Source: Pelobacter sp.
GTDB lineage: Bacteria > Desulfobacterota > Desulfuromonadia > Geobacterales > Pseudopelobacteraceae
Assembly: GCA_030824515.1 (NCBI GenBank)
Contig: JAVBXN010000008.1
Coordinates: 1-64,000 of the forward strand
DNA length: 64,000 nt
Reading direction: 5' to 3'
A program made the position numbers and the translations under genes. Numbering within the stretch: the stretch's first letter is position 1; each line of letters opens with the position of its first letter. Below the pieces are notes generated by a model that was not told the DNA's origin, did no database searches, and worked only from the letters and a program-made list of their open reading frames with translations. This document shows positions 48,400-64,000 of this stretch, piece by piece.

Positions 48400-48590
48400 A
48401 AAAAAAAACGCGCCGGAAGGCGCGCTGTGAACGGACAGGCCTGCACATGTCACACATGCAGTCCTGACGGGTTATCCCCTTCCGTCCCGGTTCGCCATCG
48501 AATCCGTGCGGTATGTGTTTTTATTCTCCTGCCGATTATTGATCAACTCCCGAAATCGGGTAGCCGTCACGGCATCTTGTATACAATATC
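48400..48590 (-). ncRNA. Candidate structured leader or small RNA before panB
   Basis: Read on the minus strand, the sequence contains several short hairpins (for example GCCG/CGGC, CCCG/CGGG, GACGG/CCGUC) and seven GGA triplets in about 130 bases. It ends in CGCGCC-TTCC-GGCGCG followed by eight T (48424-48401), 41 bases before the panB start. A perfect palindrome TTGTATACAA (48577-48586) lies at the 5' side. It may be the panB attenuator, a trailer of the MCP gene, or a separate RNA. I cannot match it to a known family. Confidence 0.5.
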
Positions 48591-58760: not shown

Positions 58761-61268
58761 TTACTCCGAACCCTTGACCGTCATCGGTGCCAGGCGCCAG
58801 ATCTCCCGGTTGTACTCCTGGATGGTGCGGTCGGTTGAAAATTTGCCGCTGCGGGCGGTGTTCATGATGCTCATGCGGGTCCAGCGTTCCCGGTCGCGGT
58901 AGGCATCGGCCACGAGCTGCTGGGCATCGGCAAAGCTGCGGAAATCGGCGGCCACCATCCAGGGATCCTGGGGACTGCATATCGCGTTGATGACCGGATC
59001 GAACAGCCCCGCCTCGAACAGGTTGAAATGGCCACTCCGGAGCAGGTCCATAACCCGCTGCAGATCACTGTCCGCGGATATCACCTCTTCCGGATTGTAA
59101 TCTAGGCGCAACCGGTCCACCTCTTCGGTCGTCAGTCCGAACATGAAGAAGTTTTCGTCGCCGACCTCCTCACGGATCTCGATGTTGGCGCCGTCCAGGG
59201 TCCCGATCGTGATCGCTCCGTTCATCATGAACTTCATGTTGCCGGTGCCGGAAGCCTCCTTGCCGGCGGTGGAAAGCTGTTCCGACAGATCGGTGCCGGG
59301 ACAGATCACCTCCATGGCGGTCACGCTGTAATTGGGCAGGAACGCCACCTTGAGCTTTTCTCCGACAACCGGGTCGGCGTTGATCACCTGGGCCACGTTG
59401 TTGACCAGCTTGATGATCAGCTTGGCCATGGCGTAACCGGGCGCCGCCTTGCCGCCGATCAGCACGCAGCGGTTCGTCCAGCCATCGGTATCGCCGCGCT
59501 TGATGCGGTCGTAGAGATGGATCACATGCAGGATGTTAAGCAGCTGGCGCTTGTACTCGTGGATCCGCTTGACCTGCACGTCGAACAGCCCCTCCGGGTT
59601 GAACGCGACCCCGCATTTCGCCTGCACCAGCTCCGACAGGCGCTGCTTGTTGGATTGCTTGACCTCATGCCACTGCCGGCGGAACTCCGCATCATCGGCA
59701 TATCCGGCGATTTTGTCGATCTGCTGCAGGTCGGCCACCCACCCCTCGCCGATCCTGTCGCTGACCAGCCGGCTCAACTCCGGGTTGCAGCGCGCGATCC
59801 AGCGTCGCGGCGTGACCCCGTTGGTCTTGTTGTTGAACTTGTGCGGCCAGAGCTCGTAAAAATCGCGGAAAAGCCCCTGGGCCAGCAGCTGCGAATGCAG
59901 CGCCGCAACGCCGTTGACCGAAAAACTGCCCACGATCGCCAGATAGGCCATCCTGACCTGGGGGATCTCCCCCTCCTCGATGATCGACATGCGCCGCATG
60001 CGTTCGTTGTCGCCCGGCCAGCGGCTGGAGACCTCCTGCATGAAACGGGCGTTGATTTCGAGGATGATCTGCAGCAGCCGCGGCAGCAGCTGCCCGAACA
60101 GCGGCAAAGGCCAGCGTTCCAGCGCTTCCGGCAGCAGGGTGTGGTTGGTATAGGCCATGGTCCGGCAGGTTATCTGCCAGGCCTGCTCCCACCCCAGCCG
60201 CTGCTCGTCCACCAGAATGCGCATCAGCTCCGGCACCGCGCAGCTCGGGTGGGTATCGTTCAGCTGGAAGCAGTTGCTCTCGGCAAAGGCGCTGAAATCG
60301 CCCTTATTGATCACCACCCAGCGCTCGACCACGTCCTGCAGGCTGGCCGAAGCCAGGAAATACTGCTGGCGCAGGCGCAGAACCTTGCCGTTCTCGCTGG
60401 CATCGTTCGGATAGAGCACCATGGTGATATTTTCGGCCTCGTTCTTGGTGGCAACCGACTCGGCATAGTCGCCGGCATTGAACTCGCCCAGGTTGAAGGC
60501 GTCTGTCGCGACCGCCTTCCAGAGCCGCAGCGTATTGACTGTCCCGTTGCGATAGCCGGGAATCGGGATATCGTAAGGCACGGCCAGCACATCACGGGAA
60601 TCGACCCAGCGCACGCAATCTTCACCGTCCTGGTTATGGTAATGCTCGCTGCGGCCGCCGAAGCGCACGCGCTGGGCATATTCCGGGCGTTCCATCTCCC
60701 AGGGGTTGCCGTCCCTCAGCCAGTGATCCGGCTCTTCGATCTGGCGGCCGTTGACGATGCGCTGGCGGAACATGCCGTATTCATAGCGCAGGCCATAGCC
60801 CATCACCGGCAGCTGCAGCGTGGCGCAGCTGTCCAGGAAACAGGCCGCCAGCCGCCCCAGGCCGCCGTTGCCCAGCCCGGCGTCGGCCTCGGTTTCGGCC
60901 AGTTCCTCCAGCCTGATGCCAAGGTTGTTCAGCGCCTCGGTCGCCGTGTCGGTAATGCCCAGGTTCAGCATCGCATTGCCCAGCGAGCGCCCCATCAGGA
61001 ATTCCAGCGACAGGTAATAGCCCCGCTTGCTGTTGGTTTCCACATGGGCATAGCGGGTCTTCTTCCAGCGCTCCATCAGCCGGTCACGCACGGTCAGCGC
61101 CAGCGCCTTGTAATAGTAGTGGATCGAATTGCAGTACTTGTCCTGCCCCAGGTTATAGGTGAAATAATGCCTGAAATCGCTGATCAGGCTGGGAACGTCC
61201 ATCGGCAGCGGCGGCAGCTCGGTCAGGCCGGGCGAATGGATTGCTTTGCGTTTCTTTTTCTGCATCAT
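58761..61268 (-). CDS. glgP: Glycogen/maltodextrin phosphorylase
   Basis: PLP-dependent enzyme that releases glucose 1-phosphate from glycogen. The PLP-lysine region is EASGTGNMKFMMNGA (about residue 675), and the N-terminal half has the GGLGRLAACFLDS motif. Length (835) is that of GlgP. It lies 32 bp upstream of the tRNA nucleotidyltransferase on the same strand. It is the last core-type gene before the accessory end of the window. Confidence 0.95.
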   Translation of the reverse strand: MMQKKKRKAIHSPGLTELPPLPMDVPSLISDFRHYFTYNLGQDKYCNSIHYYYKALALTVRDRLMERWKKTRYAHVETNSKRGYYLSLEFLMGRSLGNAMLNLGITDTATEALNNLGIRLEELAETEADAGLGNGGLGRLAACFLDSCATLQLPVMGYGLRYEYGMFRQRIVNGRQIEEPDHWLRDGNPWEMERPEYAQRVRFGGRSEHYHNQDGEDCVRWVDSRDVLAVPYDIPIPGYRNGTVNTLRLWKAVATDAFNLGEFNAGDYAESVATKNEAENITMVLYPNDASENGKVLRLRQQYFLASASLQDVVERWVVINKGDFSAFAESNCFQLNDTHPSCAVPELMRILVDEQRLGWEQAWQITCRTMAYTNHTLLPEALERWPLPLFGQLLPRLLQIILEINARFMQEVSSRWPGDNERMRRMSIIEEGEIPQVRMAYLAIVGSFSVNGVAALHSQLLAQGLFRDFYELWPHKFNNKTNGVTPRRWIARCNPELSRLVSDRIGEGWVADLQQIDKIAGYADDAEFRRQWHEVKQSNKQRLSELVQAKCGVAFNPEGLFDVQVKRIHEYKRQLLNILHVIHLYDRIKRGDTDGWTNRCVLIGGKAAPGYAMAKLIIKLVNNVAQVINADPVVGEKLKVAFLPNYSVTAMEVICPGTDLSEQLSTAGKEASGTGNMKFMMNGAITIGTLDGANIEIREEVGDENFFMFGLTTEEVDRLRLDYNPEEVISADSDLQRVMDLLRSGHFNLFEAGLFDPVINAICSPQDPWMVAADFRSFADAQQLVADAYRDRERWTRMSIMNTARSGKFSTDRTIQEYNREIWRLAPMTVKGSE

Positions 61269-61328
61269 TTTTATTCCTTCCTTTGAAAACCCACACTGAA
61301 GATTTCTGTCATTTGTAACGTTGGAGAG

Positions 61329-61667
61329 CTAACCGGTGCGGAGTTTTTTCCTTCGACCGGTTGAGCGCGTAGTCAGGCATGTTTCCCATGTTTCGTGGAT
61401 AGCTTCGCGTACTACGTCTGAAAGTCTCAACCCCTGGGCAAACTGCTTCAAGGCATCATTCATCAGTGTTTGATAGTTACCACCAATCATCTCGGCCCGT
61501 GCCTTAAATGTTGCCAGTATGTCGTTATCAACGCGCATGGTAATTCTGGATTTTCCTCCTGCTTCTTCCTGCAATTTTGCAAGGTGCGGTGTTTCACGGA
61601 CAGGCTTTGCATCGGCAAAATCAAAGTCTTTGTATTTGTTGTGCATTTTGTCAGAACTGGTTTTCAT
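61329..61667 (-). CDS. brnA: BrnA-family antitoxin
   Basis: Antitoxin partner of BrnT, 112 residues. A charged N-terminal half that would contact the toxin is followed by a short ribbon-helix-helix-like part: SRITMRVDNDILATFKARAEMIGGNYQTLMNDAL. The ATG at 61667, with GGAGGCGCT upstream, overlaps the end of brnT by 17 bases; a longer frame to 61742 lies within brnT and is not used. Like other BrnA proteins it probably represses its own operon. Confidence 0.85.
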   Translation of the reverse strand: MKTSSDKMHNKYKDFDFADAKPVRETPHLAKLQEEAGGKSRITMRVDNDILATFKARAEMIGGNYQTLMNDALKQFAQGLRLSDVVREAIHETWETCLTTRSTGRRKKLRTG

Positions 61668-61926
61668 AGCGCCTCCGCTGCGGTTCATTAGCCTTCCAGG
61701 CCGAAATGATCCGAATTGTTTCGTCTCTGTAGGTATAGACAATGATCAGAATTCGATTCTTGCCACCCATGCCCAACGTTATAAAGCGTTGCTCATTTTC
61801 CGAGTCACTGTCTTCACGGGTCAAAGCATAAGGATCAAGCAAAACGTGCTGGGCTTCCTCAAAAGTTACCCCATCATGATTTTTCGGGTTTGCGGTTGCC
61901 TTTTTGGAATCCCAGATGATTTTCAT
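61651..61926 (-). CDS. brnT: BrnT-family ribonuclease toxin
   Basis: Small RNase of type II toxin-antitoxin systems, 91 residues. The order of motifs (IIWDSKKATANPKNHDGVTFEEA, then EQRFITLGMGGK, then IRIISAWKANEPQRRRYE) is that of BrnT, and the conserved His and Arg positions are kept. The toxin gene comes first, as is usual for BrnT/BrnA. Its ATG lies only seven bases after a predicted -10 box, so the mRNA may be leaderless. Such modules are common in integron cassettes, but no attC follows brnA. Confidence 0.88.
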   Translation of the reverse strand: MKIIWDSKKATANPKNHDGVTFEEAQHVLLDPYALTREDSDSENEQRFITLGMGGKNRILIIVYTYRDETIRIISAWKANEPQRRRYENQF

Positions 61927-61932
61927 GGTTTA

Positions 61933-61961
61933 ATTGTATGTACAATAGTATGCACTGTCAA
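61933..61961 (-). promoter_or_regulatory. brnTA promoter with overlapping dyad operator
   Basis: Perfect TTGACA (61961-61956), a 17-bp spacer and TACAAT (61938-61933). The -10 box forms half of a dyad, ATTGTA-TG-TACAAT (61933-61946), a likely BrnA operator. Transcription should begin near 61926, the first base of brnT. Confidence 0.7.
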
Positions 61962-62138
61962 GGGTGATAATATCTGACGGGAAATTATAAGGATGGAATA
62001 AACTTTCACTCAAGGCCCTTCTTTGAAGGTTTTTTAGCGGGGTTGTTAAACCCTCCGGGACGGTTATCTTCCCATTCAGCTATGAAGCCATTCACAATAA
62101 TGGCTGCAGGGATTAAGATTAGGCAATCCGCAATCTTT
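61962..62138. other. Non-coding junction between brnTA and the last attC-like site
   Basis: No gene is seen. A weak plus-strand hairpin CCTTC-TTT-GAAGG followed by six T (62017-62035) may stop transcription from the left. If the cassette array is real, its distal boundary lies in or near this stretch. Confidence 0.4.
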
Positions 62139-62212
62139 GGATAACGGTTGTGAGGCACACCGGCTCGGCGGGGGGCTTTTCCCCCGCTGACCGGTGTTGC
62201 CGATTGTTGGGC
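62139..62212 (-). other. attC-like recombination site 2
   Basis: On the minus strand the site starts GCCCAAC (matches RYYYAAC) and ends GTTATCC (matches GTTRRRY at the key GTT and final Y). The inner boxes are GGCAACACCGG and CCGGTGTGCC, which pair with a single extra A on the first arm. A central GC-rich hairpin (AGCGGGGG/CCCCCCG) fills the middle. Unpaired spacers separate inner and outer boxes. These are the hallmarks of a folded attC site. It lies 115 bp after the stop of the membrane-protein ORF. Confidence 0.78.
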
Positions 62213-62326
62213 GTCATCCTCTGCCGCAAGGTTTCTCCGGTGGCAAACTTTTTCTGCGACTACGCCCGCACCACCGTACTCCTCGGTTTGGCTGGACAGT
62301 GACTCCGAATTTCTCCGGATATTTTT

Positions 62327-62866
62327 CTATTTAGCAAGTTCCATGAAGCTAAAGGCATAAGCAGCAAATCCTGAAACTGCCGACATCGTAATTACAACAG
62401 ATGTTATCCATTTTGTTTTTATTTCATTGTCTGCTTGTAGTTGGTGCCAATGGCCTACCGCAATAATGCTGCTAGCAATTGCACCTGGAATTGCTCCTAT
62501 AATAATGAACAAAATTCTACGAGTTGAAATCGATTCTACTGGCTGGAACAAATAACTGATTTGCAACATTTTCAAAATTGAGGCTATAACGAAGTTAACT
62601 AACACGGTTGCAAGAGGCCACACTATACTTGCAATAACGTTAAATCCTACCCACTCTCCCTTTTTGCTGACTAAAGACTGGATAAATAGTAGCTGCATCA
62701 GTGAAGCGAAAAAACTTGTCATAGGCAGCACAGCTACCCAGAAAAACAGGTGTTTAGAAGCTATTGGATATATTGCGAAATACGAAACTACTGCTGCTAT
62801 TGCTATGGCAATGACGTTAATAATTAGAAATTTTACTGTCGCTAATTTGGTTAGATTTAATTCCAT
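62327..62866 (-). CDS. Cassette-borne membrane protein of unknown function
   Basis: I recognise no family. The 179-residue protein is strongly hydrophobic, with about five membrane helices (near 7-30, 37-58, 70-95, 117-140 and 155-173) and few charged residues. It is AT-rich compared with the core genes. The ATG at 62866 is preferred because CCGGAGAAATA precedes it; a TTG at 62881 lies inside the attC core box. It starts about ten bases after attC site 1 and is followed by attC site 2, so it is one complete gene cassette. Confidence 0.7.
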   Translation of the reverse strand: MELNLTKLATVKFLIINVIAIAIAAVVSYFAIYPIASKHLFFWVAVLPMTSFFASLMQLLFIQSLVSKKGEWVGFNVIASIVWPLATVLVNFVIASILKMLQISYLFQPVESISTRRILFIIIGAIPGAIASSIIAVGHWHQLQADNEIKTKWITSVVITMSAVSGFAAYAFSFMELAK

Positions 62867-62875
62867 TATTTCTCC

Positions 62876-62934
62876 GGCCAACGGTTGGGGAGAACAGCGG
62901 CGGTTTTTAGGCCGCTGCTTCTGCCTGGTTGGAC
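62876..62934 (-). other. attC-like recombination site 1
   Basis: On the minus strand the site starts GTCCAAC (full match to RYYYAAC) and ends GTTGGCC. The inner boxes, AGAAGCAGCGGC and GCCGCTGTTCT, pair with one extra G on the first arm, as in classical attC sites, around a CTAAAAACC-type loop. It is 59 bases long. It begins nine bases after the stop of the 62944-63975 ORF, as expected at a cassette 3' end. Confidence 0.82.
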
Positions 62935-62943
62935 ACTCGTCCT

Positions 62944-63975
62944 TTACTTTTGACTCGTCCTTGATTCCGCCTTACTAGGGTCATCTGTAAAGGTAATATT
63001 GCCTTCTTTATCAACGCTCTTATAGATTCCAGTTTCAGGACGTTTTGGTTGTAAATAGTTAGTTTTTGTAGGTGGTACAACAGGTTTTGTCTCTGTCTTG
63101 TCAATAATTGGTACTGTTTTAAGATAGTAATCCGAAGAGCCATCATAAATTCCATTTTGTTTTTTATACAAGGCATCACCAGTAATCATCACACCACCAC
63201 AATCAGGACAGACAAATTCAGTTGAGTTTTTCGGAGGCTTCGTAAGCAGGACTTTAGAGCATTTACTGCATCCATAATATTTGTTTGGGGTAACATACCA
63301 CTCTCTGTATTTTTGGTTCATGAGAACAGAAAACGGCTCATGATGCGGGTCGTCAGTAGTGTTTATTATTCCCAACCCTTCTGGATTATCAATTTCACCC
63401 CCAGACCAGTACGGGATTTCAGCCACCTTACCATTTGCCCGTATTATTCGGTCGTTGAATCGATCTCGTATAAATATTACCGGCTTCCCCCATGGATCGA
63501 TAATTTTGTCTTTTTTTACCTTGGCACCAAACTCCAGTATTTTTTTATGATTTGTGTCAACGTATTCAGCAAAGCCGTCTACGGTAATCTCGCAATCTGA
63601 ACCAACGTAATGAAATTTCTCCGGTGAAATTTTATAGTATGCATCTAATGCTTTAGCCATTTCGGTTTTGAATCTGTTGTTGGCTTCAATTTTGTCCATT
63701 TTTTTAAAGAAGGATTTGTCGTAGGCATGACTGGGATTATAAAGGCTGTAGGCAATCATGGGGGTGCATAAAAAGATAGGAAATATATATTTAAAGACTT
63801 GTCTGGTCGTTATAGCCTTTGCGACCAAAACCAAAAACACAATGGCGGTTACCAGAATTGTAGGGACGTATAGAATGGATACTAAAAATTCCAGGCTGTT
63901 TGGCCAACCTGGTGAATGCCTTGTGTTGTTGGCTACCGCTACGAAAAACAAGCTGTAAATGCTTATGGCATACAT
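62944..63975 (-). CDS. Cassette-borne mosaic membrane protein (DPWG motif, zinc ribbon)
   Basis: I do not recognise a named family. Two or three membrane helices in the first ~90 residues are followed by a soluble part. It contains DPWGKPVIFIRDRF (about residue 160), like the C-terminal motif of type II secretion pseudopilins. A zinc ribbon follows, CSKCSK and CPDCGG (about 240-265). The tail GIYKSVDKEGNITFTDDP resembles the start of DUF4124-type domains. Sequence is AT-rich. The start is uncertain: ATG 63975 is used, but TTG 63984 and 63993 are in frame and AGGAGG lies at 63995-64000. Its stop is nine bases from attC site 1. Confidence 0.62.
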   Translation of the reverse strand: MYAISIYSLFFVAVANNTRHSPGWPNSLEFLVSILYVPTILVTAIVFLVLVAKAITTRQVFKYIFPIFLCTPMIAYSLYNPSHAYDKSFFKKMDKIEANNRFKTEMAKALDAYYKISPEKFHYVGSDCEITVDGFAEYVDTNHKKILEFGAKVKKDKIIDPWGKPVIFIRDRFNDRIIRANGKVAEIPYWSGGEIDNPEGLGIINTTDDPHHEPFSVLMNQKYREWYVTPNKYYGCSKCSKVLLTKPPKNSTEFVCPDCGGVMITGDALYKKQNGIYDGSSDYYLKTVPIIDKTETKPVVPPTKTNYLQPKRPETGIYKSVDKEGNITFTDDPSKAESRTSQK

Positions 63976-64000
63976 CAGCGCCAACTTCAGCAATCCTCCT

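Follow-up and report, generated by a model that had tools for sequence, protein, structure and literature searches.

The joining of a folded attC site to an attI site by the integrase IntI is established for integrons generally. Arrays of attC sites without an integrase (CALINs) are usually explained by the decay of integrons or by insertion at scattered sites.

In its accessible text, PMC9024848 sets the threshold for a CALIN at at least two attC sites, counts 2961 CALINs against 2760 complete integrons and shows attI sites outside class 1 to be poorly described. In Xanthomonas, integrase-less arrays recur at certain loci of the chromosome, away from intI; the accessible text of PMC12444791 names seven such loci, describes these CALINs as mobilisable in trans and mentions no conserved head element. 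Insertion of cassettes at another type of site, attG, has also been described (as cited in the accessible parts of PMC11023631, PMC12901181 and PMC12444791). Earlier papers had already noted intI in Geobacter (PMC2426708; PMC3108266), and the term 'attI-like' occurs together with 'integron' in PMC10127599, the accessible part of which deals with off-target integron activity and plasmid evolution. In the literature searched (subscription papers were outside its scope), no report was found of a dispersed family of attI-like sites heading CALINs.

The window analysed here is a stretch of 64,000 nucleotides from a Pelobacter sp. genome (4.65 Mb in 62 contigs). It comprises bases 1-64000 of contig C16 (210,322 bases), and window and contig numbering are identical. 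The best named records for its glgP gene were MAGs recorded under Deltaproteobacteria (87%), Geobacter sp. (84%) and Geobacteraceae (82%), and Geomonas followed at 75%; the closest relative is genome G021 (glgP 97%). A short array lies between glgP (58761-61268) and an aminotransferase gene (64364-65536, minus strand). From right to left the order is the mraZ/rsmH/fts/mur cluster (plus strand, gene names assigned by eye), the aminotransferase gene, a vapC remnant, a head element, a 416-aa ORF, hairpin site 2, a 179-aa ORF, hairpin site 1, brnT and brnA, and glgP. In 9 of the 20 glgP regions of relatives (L032-L051), the glgP and aminotransferase matches are at most 200 bp apart, without an array. 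The G + C content of 61927-64000 is 41.5%, against 54.9% for the window, in agreement with an earlier sequence-only reading that had called this stretch AT-richer. The sole Rfam match in the window at gathering score was a pan motif (RF01749, 45.1 bits) at 48478-48569 on the minus strand.

The sequence-only reading had interpreted two minus-strand hairpins as sites of an integron cassette array, and direct inspection of the sequence bore out their positions, their boxes and the single extrahelical base. Site 1 (62139-62212) has outer boxes GCCCAAC...GTTATCC and inner arms GGCA(A)CACCGG / CCGGTGTGCC; site 2 (62876-62934) has outer boxes GTCCAAC...GTTGGCC and inner arms AGAA(G)CAGCGGC / GCCGCTGTTCT. 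In both, the one extra base is in the first arm. The folding energies of sites 1 and 2 (RNA parameters) were -37.3 and -22.4 kcal/mol, respectively. An ad hoc fold-and-box scan was dropped and covariance models were adopted, because the scan gave many false matches in coding DNA. Our home-made attC model, R1, was built from 13 attC-like hairpins in arrays adjoining intact intI genes of six other species of the genus; the training set excludes the window genome and G021. Pairing of the outer boxes and the inner boxes, with one bulge, was imposed on the model. Its alignment covaries, with 86.6% paired cells against 69.4% in shuffles, and 34 against 13.3 changed on both sides.

R1 was run on 164,785 bases, consisting of the window, five other stretches of the same genome (one overlapping the window) and one G021 locus. 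Site 1 scored 58.8 bits (E 3.5e-11) and site 2 scored 43.5 bits (E 1.5e-7), both far above chance; the next scores were 25.6 bits, on contig C55 beside a broken intI, and 17.0 bits. In 19 glgP-side regions of relatives (L033-L051), searched for comparison as a control, R1 matched nothing at E<=1. By blastn, sites 1 and 2 were 89% (57 nt) and 87% (55 nt) identical, respectively, to attC-like sites of an intI-linked array in genome G039. With AAC/GTT outer boxes, paired inner boxes carrying one extrahelical base and these model scores, both hairpins are confirmed, on sequence criteria, as attC sites, and the gene-cassette reading, with its order and polarity, holds.

Cassette 1 (62882-64219 on the contig, 62882-64000 within the window, minus strand) measures 1338 bp from G^TT to G^TT. 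It contains the 416-aa ORF (62944-64194), the start of which is beyond the window, and site 2 is its attC. Cassette 2 (62145-62881, 737 bp, minus strand) contains a membrane-like ORF of 179 residues (62327-62866) and has site 1 as its attC; this ORF starts 9 nt past site 2, where about ten bases had been estimated. A possible third cassette (61329-61926, minus strand) would consist of brnT (61651-61926) and brnA (61329-61664), both with Pfam matches above cut-off (BrnT_toxin, 83.8 bits; BrnA_antitoxin, 51.6 bits). At the brnA end, a possible decayed third attC (61318-61373, minus strand) scored 16.0 bits with R1 (E 0.52), which by itself is not significant.

Neither the 416-aa nor the 179-aa protein had a match in the 38 other genus genomes searched. 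The case that would have spoken against cassettes, namely hairpins with sub-threshold scores that are conserved without cassettes, was thus not encountered: scores are high, further attC sites are present elsewhere in the window genome, and each cassette gene is found in 1 of 39 genus genomes. The 416-aa ORF gave weak zinc-ribbon and DUF4124 matches below cut-off, and the 179-aa ORF no Pfam match above cut-off. In a large protein set, the 416-aa protein had, apart from its own entry, relatives of 81% and 69%, each on a contig shorter than 1.4 kb, and the 179-aa protein had relatives of 93%, 58% and 51%. The 81% relative (P0002) sits on a contig of 1338 bp, the same size as cassette 1 here; this contig may represent an amplicon or a cassette circle that was assembled, or the match in size may be due to chance.

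Integrase and attI had both been predicted beyond position 64000. That part of the contig contains the remainder of the first cassette gene, the aminotransferase gene and the mraZ/rsmH/fts/mur cluster. No ORF for a recombinase was found between this cluster and the array, so the prediction failed for the integrase. For attI it succeeded in part, as an attI-like site is present at 64214-64287, with no integrase accompanying it. Because there is no intI beyond 64000 and an attI-like site is found there, the locus is not the end of a long integron; it is a short array with an orphan attI-like site at its head and two, perhaps three, cassettes. As for a cassette promoter (Pc), the single promoter-like match in contig 64099-64599 is on the plus strand, opposed to the direction of the array.

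In the window genome, PF00589 gave eight matches, every one on other contigs; tyrosine recombinases elsewhere in the genome include those on C2, C61, C54, C12, C8, C13 and C60. TIGR02249 was above cut-off in 27 of the 58 genomes of the order searched, with nothing above cut-off in the window genome or G021. The sole intI trace found in the window genome was a remnant on C55, 74% identical to residues 294-366 of the IntI of genome G005 and adjoining cassette-like ORFs and a weak attC. An intact intI might be unassembled, since several attC sites of the 62-contig assembly are near contig ends. IntI proteins of this group have an N-terminal extension, most above-cut-off matches having open frames of some 410-500 aa; in the G005 IntI (477 aa, L090 4894-6327) two stretches match the phage-integrase SAM-like domain PF13495.

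With two good attC sites of the same polarity, cassette-like ORFs and no integron-integrase nearby, the locus qualifies as a CALIN. Of the parts of a complete integron, an intI adjoining the array is lacking, and the place of an attI with a GTTRRRY core at the head of the array would be taken by the attI-like element ending in GTTGAAC. The array differs from described CALINs in that it starts at a conserved attI-like element which is repeated in the genome; no conserved head site is mentioned in the accessible texts of PMC9024848 and PMC12444791.

Cassette 1 starts exactly at the GTT of this element, which is about 74 nt long (contig 64214-64287, minus strand, beyond the window) and consists of a left box, a 32-nt palindrome, 9 nt and a GTTRRRY core, here GTTGAAC (64214-64220). 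The element lies 19 bp beyond the start codon of the 416-aa ORF. In a comparison of the window genome with G021, homology upstream of the 416-aa gene ends at ...ATGTT, closely preceded by a perfect palindrome. Past this breakpoint, the window genome continues with GTTGAAC and the 416-aa ORF, and G021 with GTTAGAC and an unrelated ORF of 393 aa. The ORF upstream in G021 encodes a Pfam-confirmed PIN protein, and the window genome keeps only the 3' end of that vapC.

Searching with the palindrome alone (at most 3 mismatches) gave 41 copies in 16 of the 39 genus genomes, and none with a reversed-pattern control. The left box of these copies is close to GGATAAATGTTCCATTTGGGWAGATC. A GTT follows the palindrome after 9 nt in 31 copies and after 10 nt in 6; the remaining 4 have none at 8-11 nt. 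RRRY after the GTT is complete in 13 of the 37 copies and has one mismatch in 18 of them, and an ATG is found within 41 nt of the core start in 32. Of 41 loci examined for neighbouring ORFs, 32 have an ORF of at least 60 aa on the strand of the element that begins within 160 nt after it, and no fewer than 21 have one on this strand whose end is at most 80 nt upstream of the element. Two other roles were considered and rejected: there is no terminator-like match at the palindrome of the locus, and coding by the left box was set aside by eye (there is little variation at codon third positions, and a stop interrupts the frame in some copies). The ORFs directly upstream of several copies (L309, L339, L314, L318, L324, L141) look toxin-antitoxin-like by eye (PIN/VapC, MazF-like, antitoxin).

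Because an ungapped weight matrix overlooked copies whose loops differ in length, or scored them too low, a further model, R2, was built from 38 sequences. At E<=1e-4, R2 found the element in 8 of 9 genera and in 46 of 58 genomes of the order. The copy at the window locus, which belongs to the model alignment, scored 100 bits (E 6.5e-20 in its own genome). The window genome contains 11 distinct copies; R2 gave 16 rows there, of which five reverse-strand palindrome echoes were left out of the count.

Outside the window genome, the position of the element relative to attC sites was determined for the best 41 copies among the matches listed. These lie in 40 regions (two copies share one) of up to 5 kb per side, with at least 1.1 kb upstream in each and, in a few, nearly nothing downstream. 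R1 detected 40 attC sites at E<=0.5 (30 at E<0.01) in 24 of the 40 regions. All 40 are downstream of an element and on its strand; none was found upstream of an element or on the opposite strand in these regions. In the other 16 regions R1 found no attC. In the window genome, 7 of the 11 copies have an attC within 5 kb downstream, and 6 of the 14 strongest attC sites (E<=0.001) are within 5 kb behind a detected element. Genome G029, a single contig with no intI above cut-off, has elements and three attC sites.

What follows the GTT differs between species at the same place. We compared 48 sites in pairs from different genomes; pairs with at least 0.74 identity in the upstream 100 bp were taken to share a flank, and those below served as background. 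All 16 shared-flank pairs had an identity of 0.52-0.65 over 61-100 nt after the GTT; the background pairs (n=937) had a downstream identity of 0.588 (sd 0.032, maximum 0.71). The DNA after the GTT is thus unrelated behind shared flanks, and the same place carries different first cassettes across species. The 16 pairs fall in 7 site groups, one of which contains the site of the window together with those of G021 and G016; orthologous copies are included in the pairs and in the 40 regions, which are therefore not all independent. At the window locus of G021 a cassette start is present, R1 finds no attC, and a Y1 transposase gene is next. The nuoN-permease and nuoL-nuoH arrays of the window genome, compared to relatives, showed no clean GTT boundary on both sides. 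The starts of contigs C51 and C62 of the window genome (G000; L131, L133) match G021 contig C179 (L142) between helicase-like and thioesterase-like genes, a site that holds other cassettes in G021; the assembly of the window genome probably breaks inside an array at this site.

To relate the element to attI sites beside intI, a weight matrix of its last 21 nt (37 copies) was run from intI towards the array in 28 of 30 intI loci, two with less than 150 bp upstream being left out. The end motif was present at the attI position, on the array strand, in 20 of the 28 loci at p<=0.01 relative to shuffles (for 18 of them, none of 200 shuffles did as well), and was missing at this level from 8; the opposite-strand control gave 1 of 28. 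The 20 accepted motifs, which read CCGGTGAATAACGAGTTGAAC and similar, lie 231-938 nt away from where the stretch starts at intI. Element and intI-linked loci thus share the crossover end CCGGT-SAAYAACGAGTTRRRY, as in the attI of the chromosomal integrons of this order. The attI2 core AATAAAATGTTRRRY, given in the accessible text of PMC12901181, is also close to the element end on the window contig, AATAATATGTTGAAC. In the intI loci of G048 and G003, the motif comes after a short palindrome and a box reading GGATG or GAAGATG. However, the full element was not found by R2 at E<0.1 in the 30 intI loci (best 20.6 bits, E 0.14), and the long palindrome therefore marks the dispersed family. The element differs from attI in being away from intI, in having many copies per genome, and in its 32-nt palindrome and left box, which R2 does not recognise in intI loci.

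We consider it likely that a dispersed, attI-related landing site heads these short integrase-less arrays, which were filled in trans by an IntI encoded elsewhere and are probably frozen now. The usual explanation would be that a complete integron at each place lost its intI and left attI and cassettes behind. The intI remnant beside cassettes on C55 and the end motif common to the element and the attI position are what such decay would leave, but 11 distinct copies in a single genome and an extended-palindrome element that was not found (E<0.1) in the 30 intI loci fit it poorly. In addition, at the loci where the upstream ORF ends within 80 nt of the element there is little room for intI at its usual place, compared with the 231-938 nt that separate the motifs from the intI end. 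We regard decay as unlikely.

Cassettes might instead have inserted at scattered attG sites, the palindrome being an unrelated nearby repeat (REP-like or a transposon end). Besides the described attG insertions, many attC sites of the window genome have no detected element, and Y1-type (IS200/REP-like) transposase-looking genes are present near three arrays of G021 and the window genome (L032 6418-7377, with a Pfam Y1_Tnp match, L142 6885-7835 and L124 3801-4460). Like attG, the element lies outside an integron and has a cassette beginning at its GTT. However, attG is described, in the accessible text of PMC12901181 and by citation, as diverging from att sites in sequence and structure, with no conservation beyond the crossover, whereas the element is attI-like and its left box and palindrome are strongly conserved in 41 copies. 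A GTT at 9 or 10 nt in 37 of 41 copies chosen by palindrome alone, attC sites on one side and strand only around the best listed copies, and an end motif common with intI loci also speak against an unrelated repeat, which makes this explanation very improbable. We give equally little weight to the element being the 3' end of an unusual, delta-attI-type cassette derived from the upstream gene, and not a fixed chromosomal site. Such cassettes are described for integrons of classes 1 and 2 (PMC12901181, accessible text), and the toxin-antitoxin-like upstream ORFs (by eye; Pfam PIN for G021) would suit them. No attC lies upstream in the 40 regions around the best listed copies, however, each with at least 1.1 kb upstream, and it is the upstream flanks that species have in common while the downstream DNA varies, the opposite of the pattern expected for a mobile unit upstream.

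The sequences themselves show the identity and polarity of the attC sites, the element and its position at array heads, the different DNA after the GTT, and the motif that the element has in common with intI loci. For the favoured landing-site reading, we infer the following course from this anatomy and from the comparisons. A circular cassette would be joined, through its folded attC and by an IntI expressed elsewhere in the cell, to an orphan attI-like site in double-stranded form, at the G^TT of that site; cassette 1 would have been joined in this way at one of the 11 distinct sites of its genome. New cassettes would enter at the head; given such entry, site 1, or the possible decayed third attC near brnA, would be the oldest end of the array. 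With dispersed sites as targets, loading and exchange of cassettes would be possible at many chromosomal places. Loss of intI would freeze the arrays, and since the sole intI trace found is a remnant, those of the window genome are probably frozen unless an integrase is supplied.

With somewhat better than even confidence, this may extend to a distributed integron of the Geobacterales, in which each genome has its attI-derived landing sites dispersed, in numbers of up to about a dozen or more, and one integrase, gained and lost over time, serves them in trans. Turnover would then occur at many loci instead of in one array, and many CALINs of this order would be built in place rather than by decay. 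The element provides a sequence handle for array heads without an integrase, and the sister species offer natural cassette replacements with base-exact junctions. A large attI-like family would also be of use in working out which target features IntI requires, given how little description there is of attI outside class 1. For integrase-less arrays, an attI-like head that is conserved and repeated would be a third, directly testable origin.
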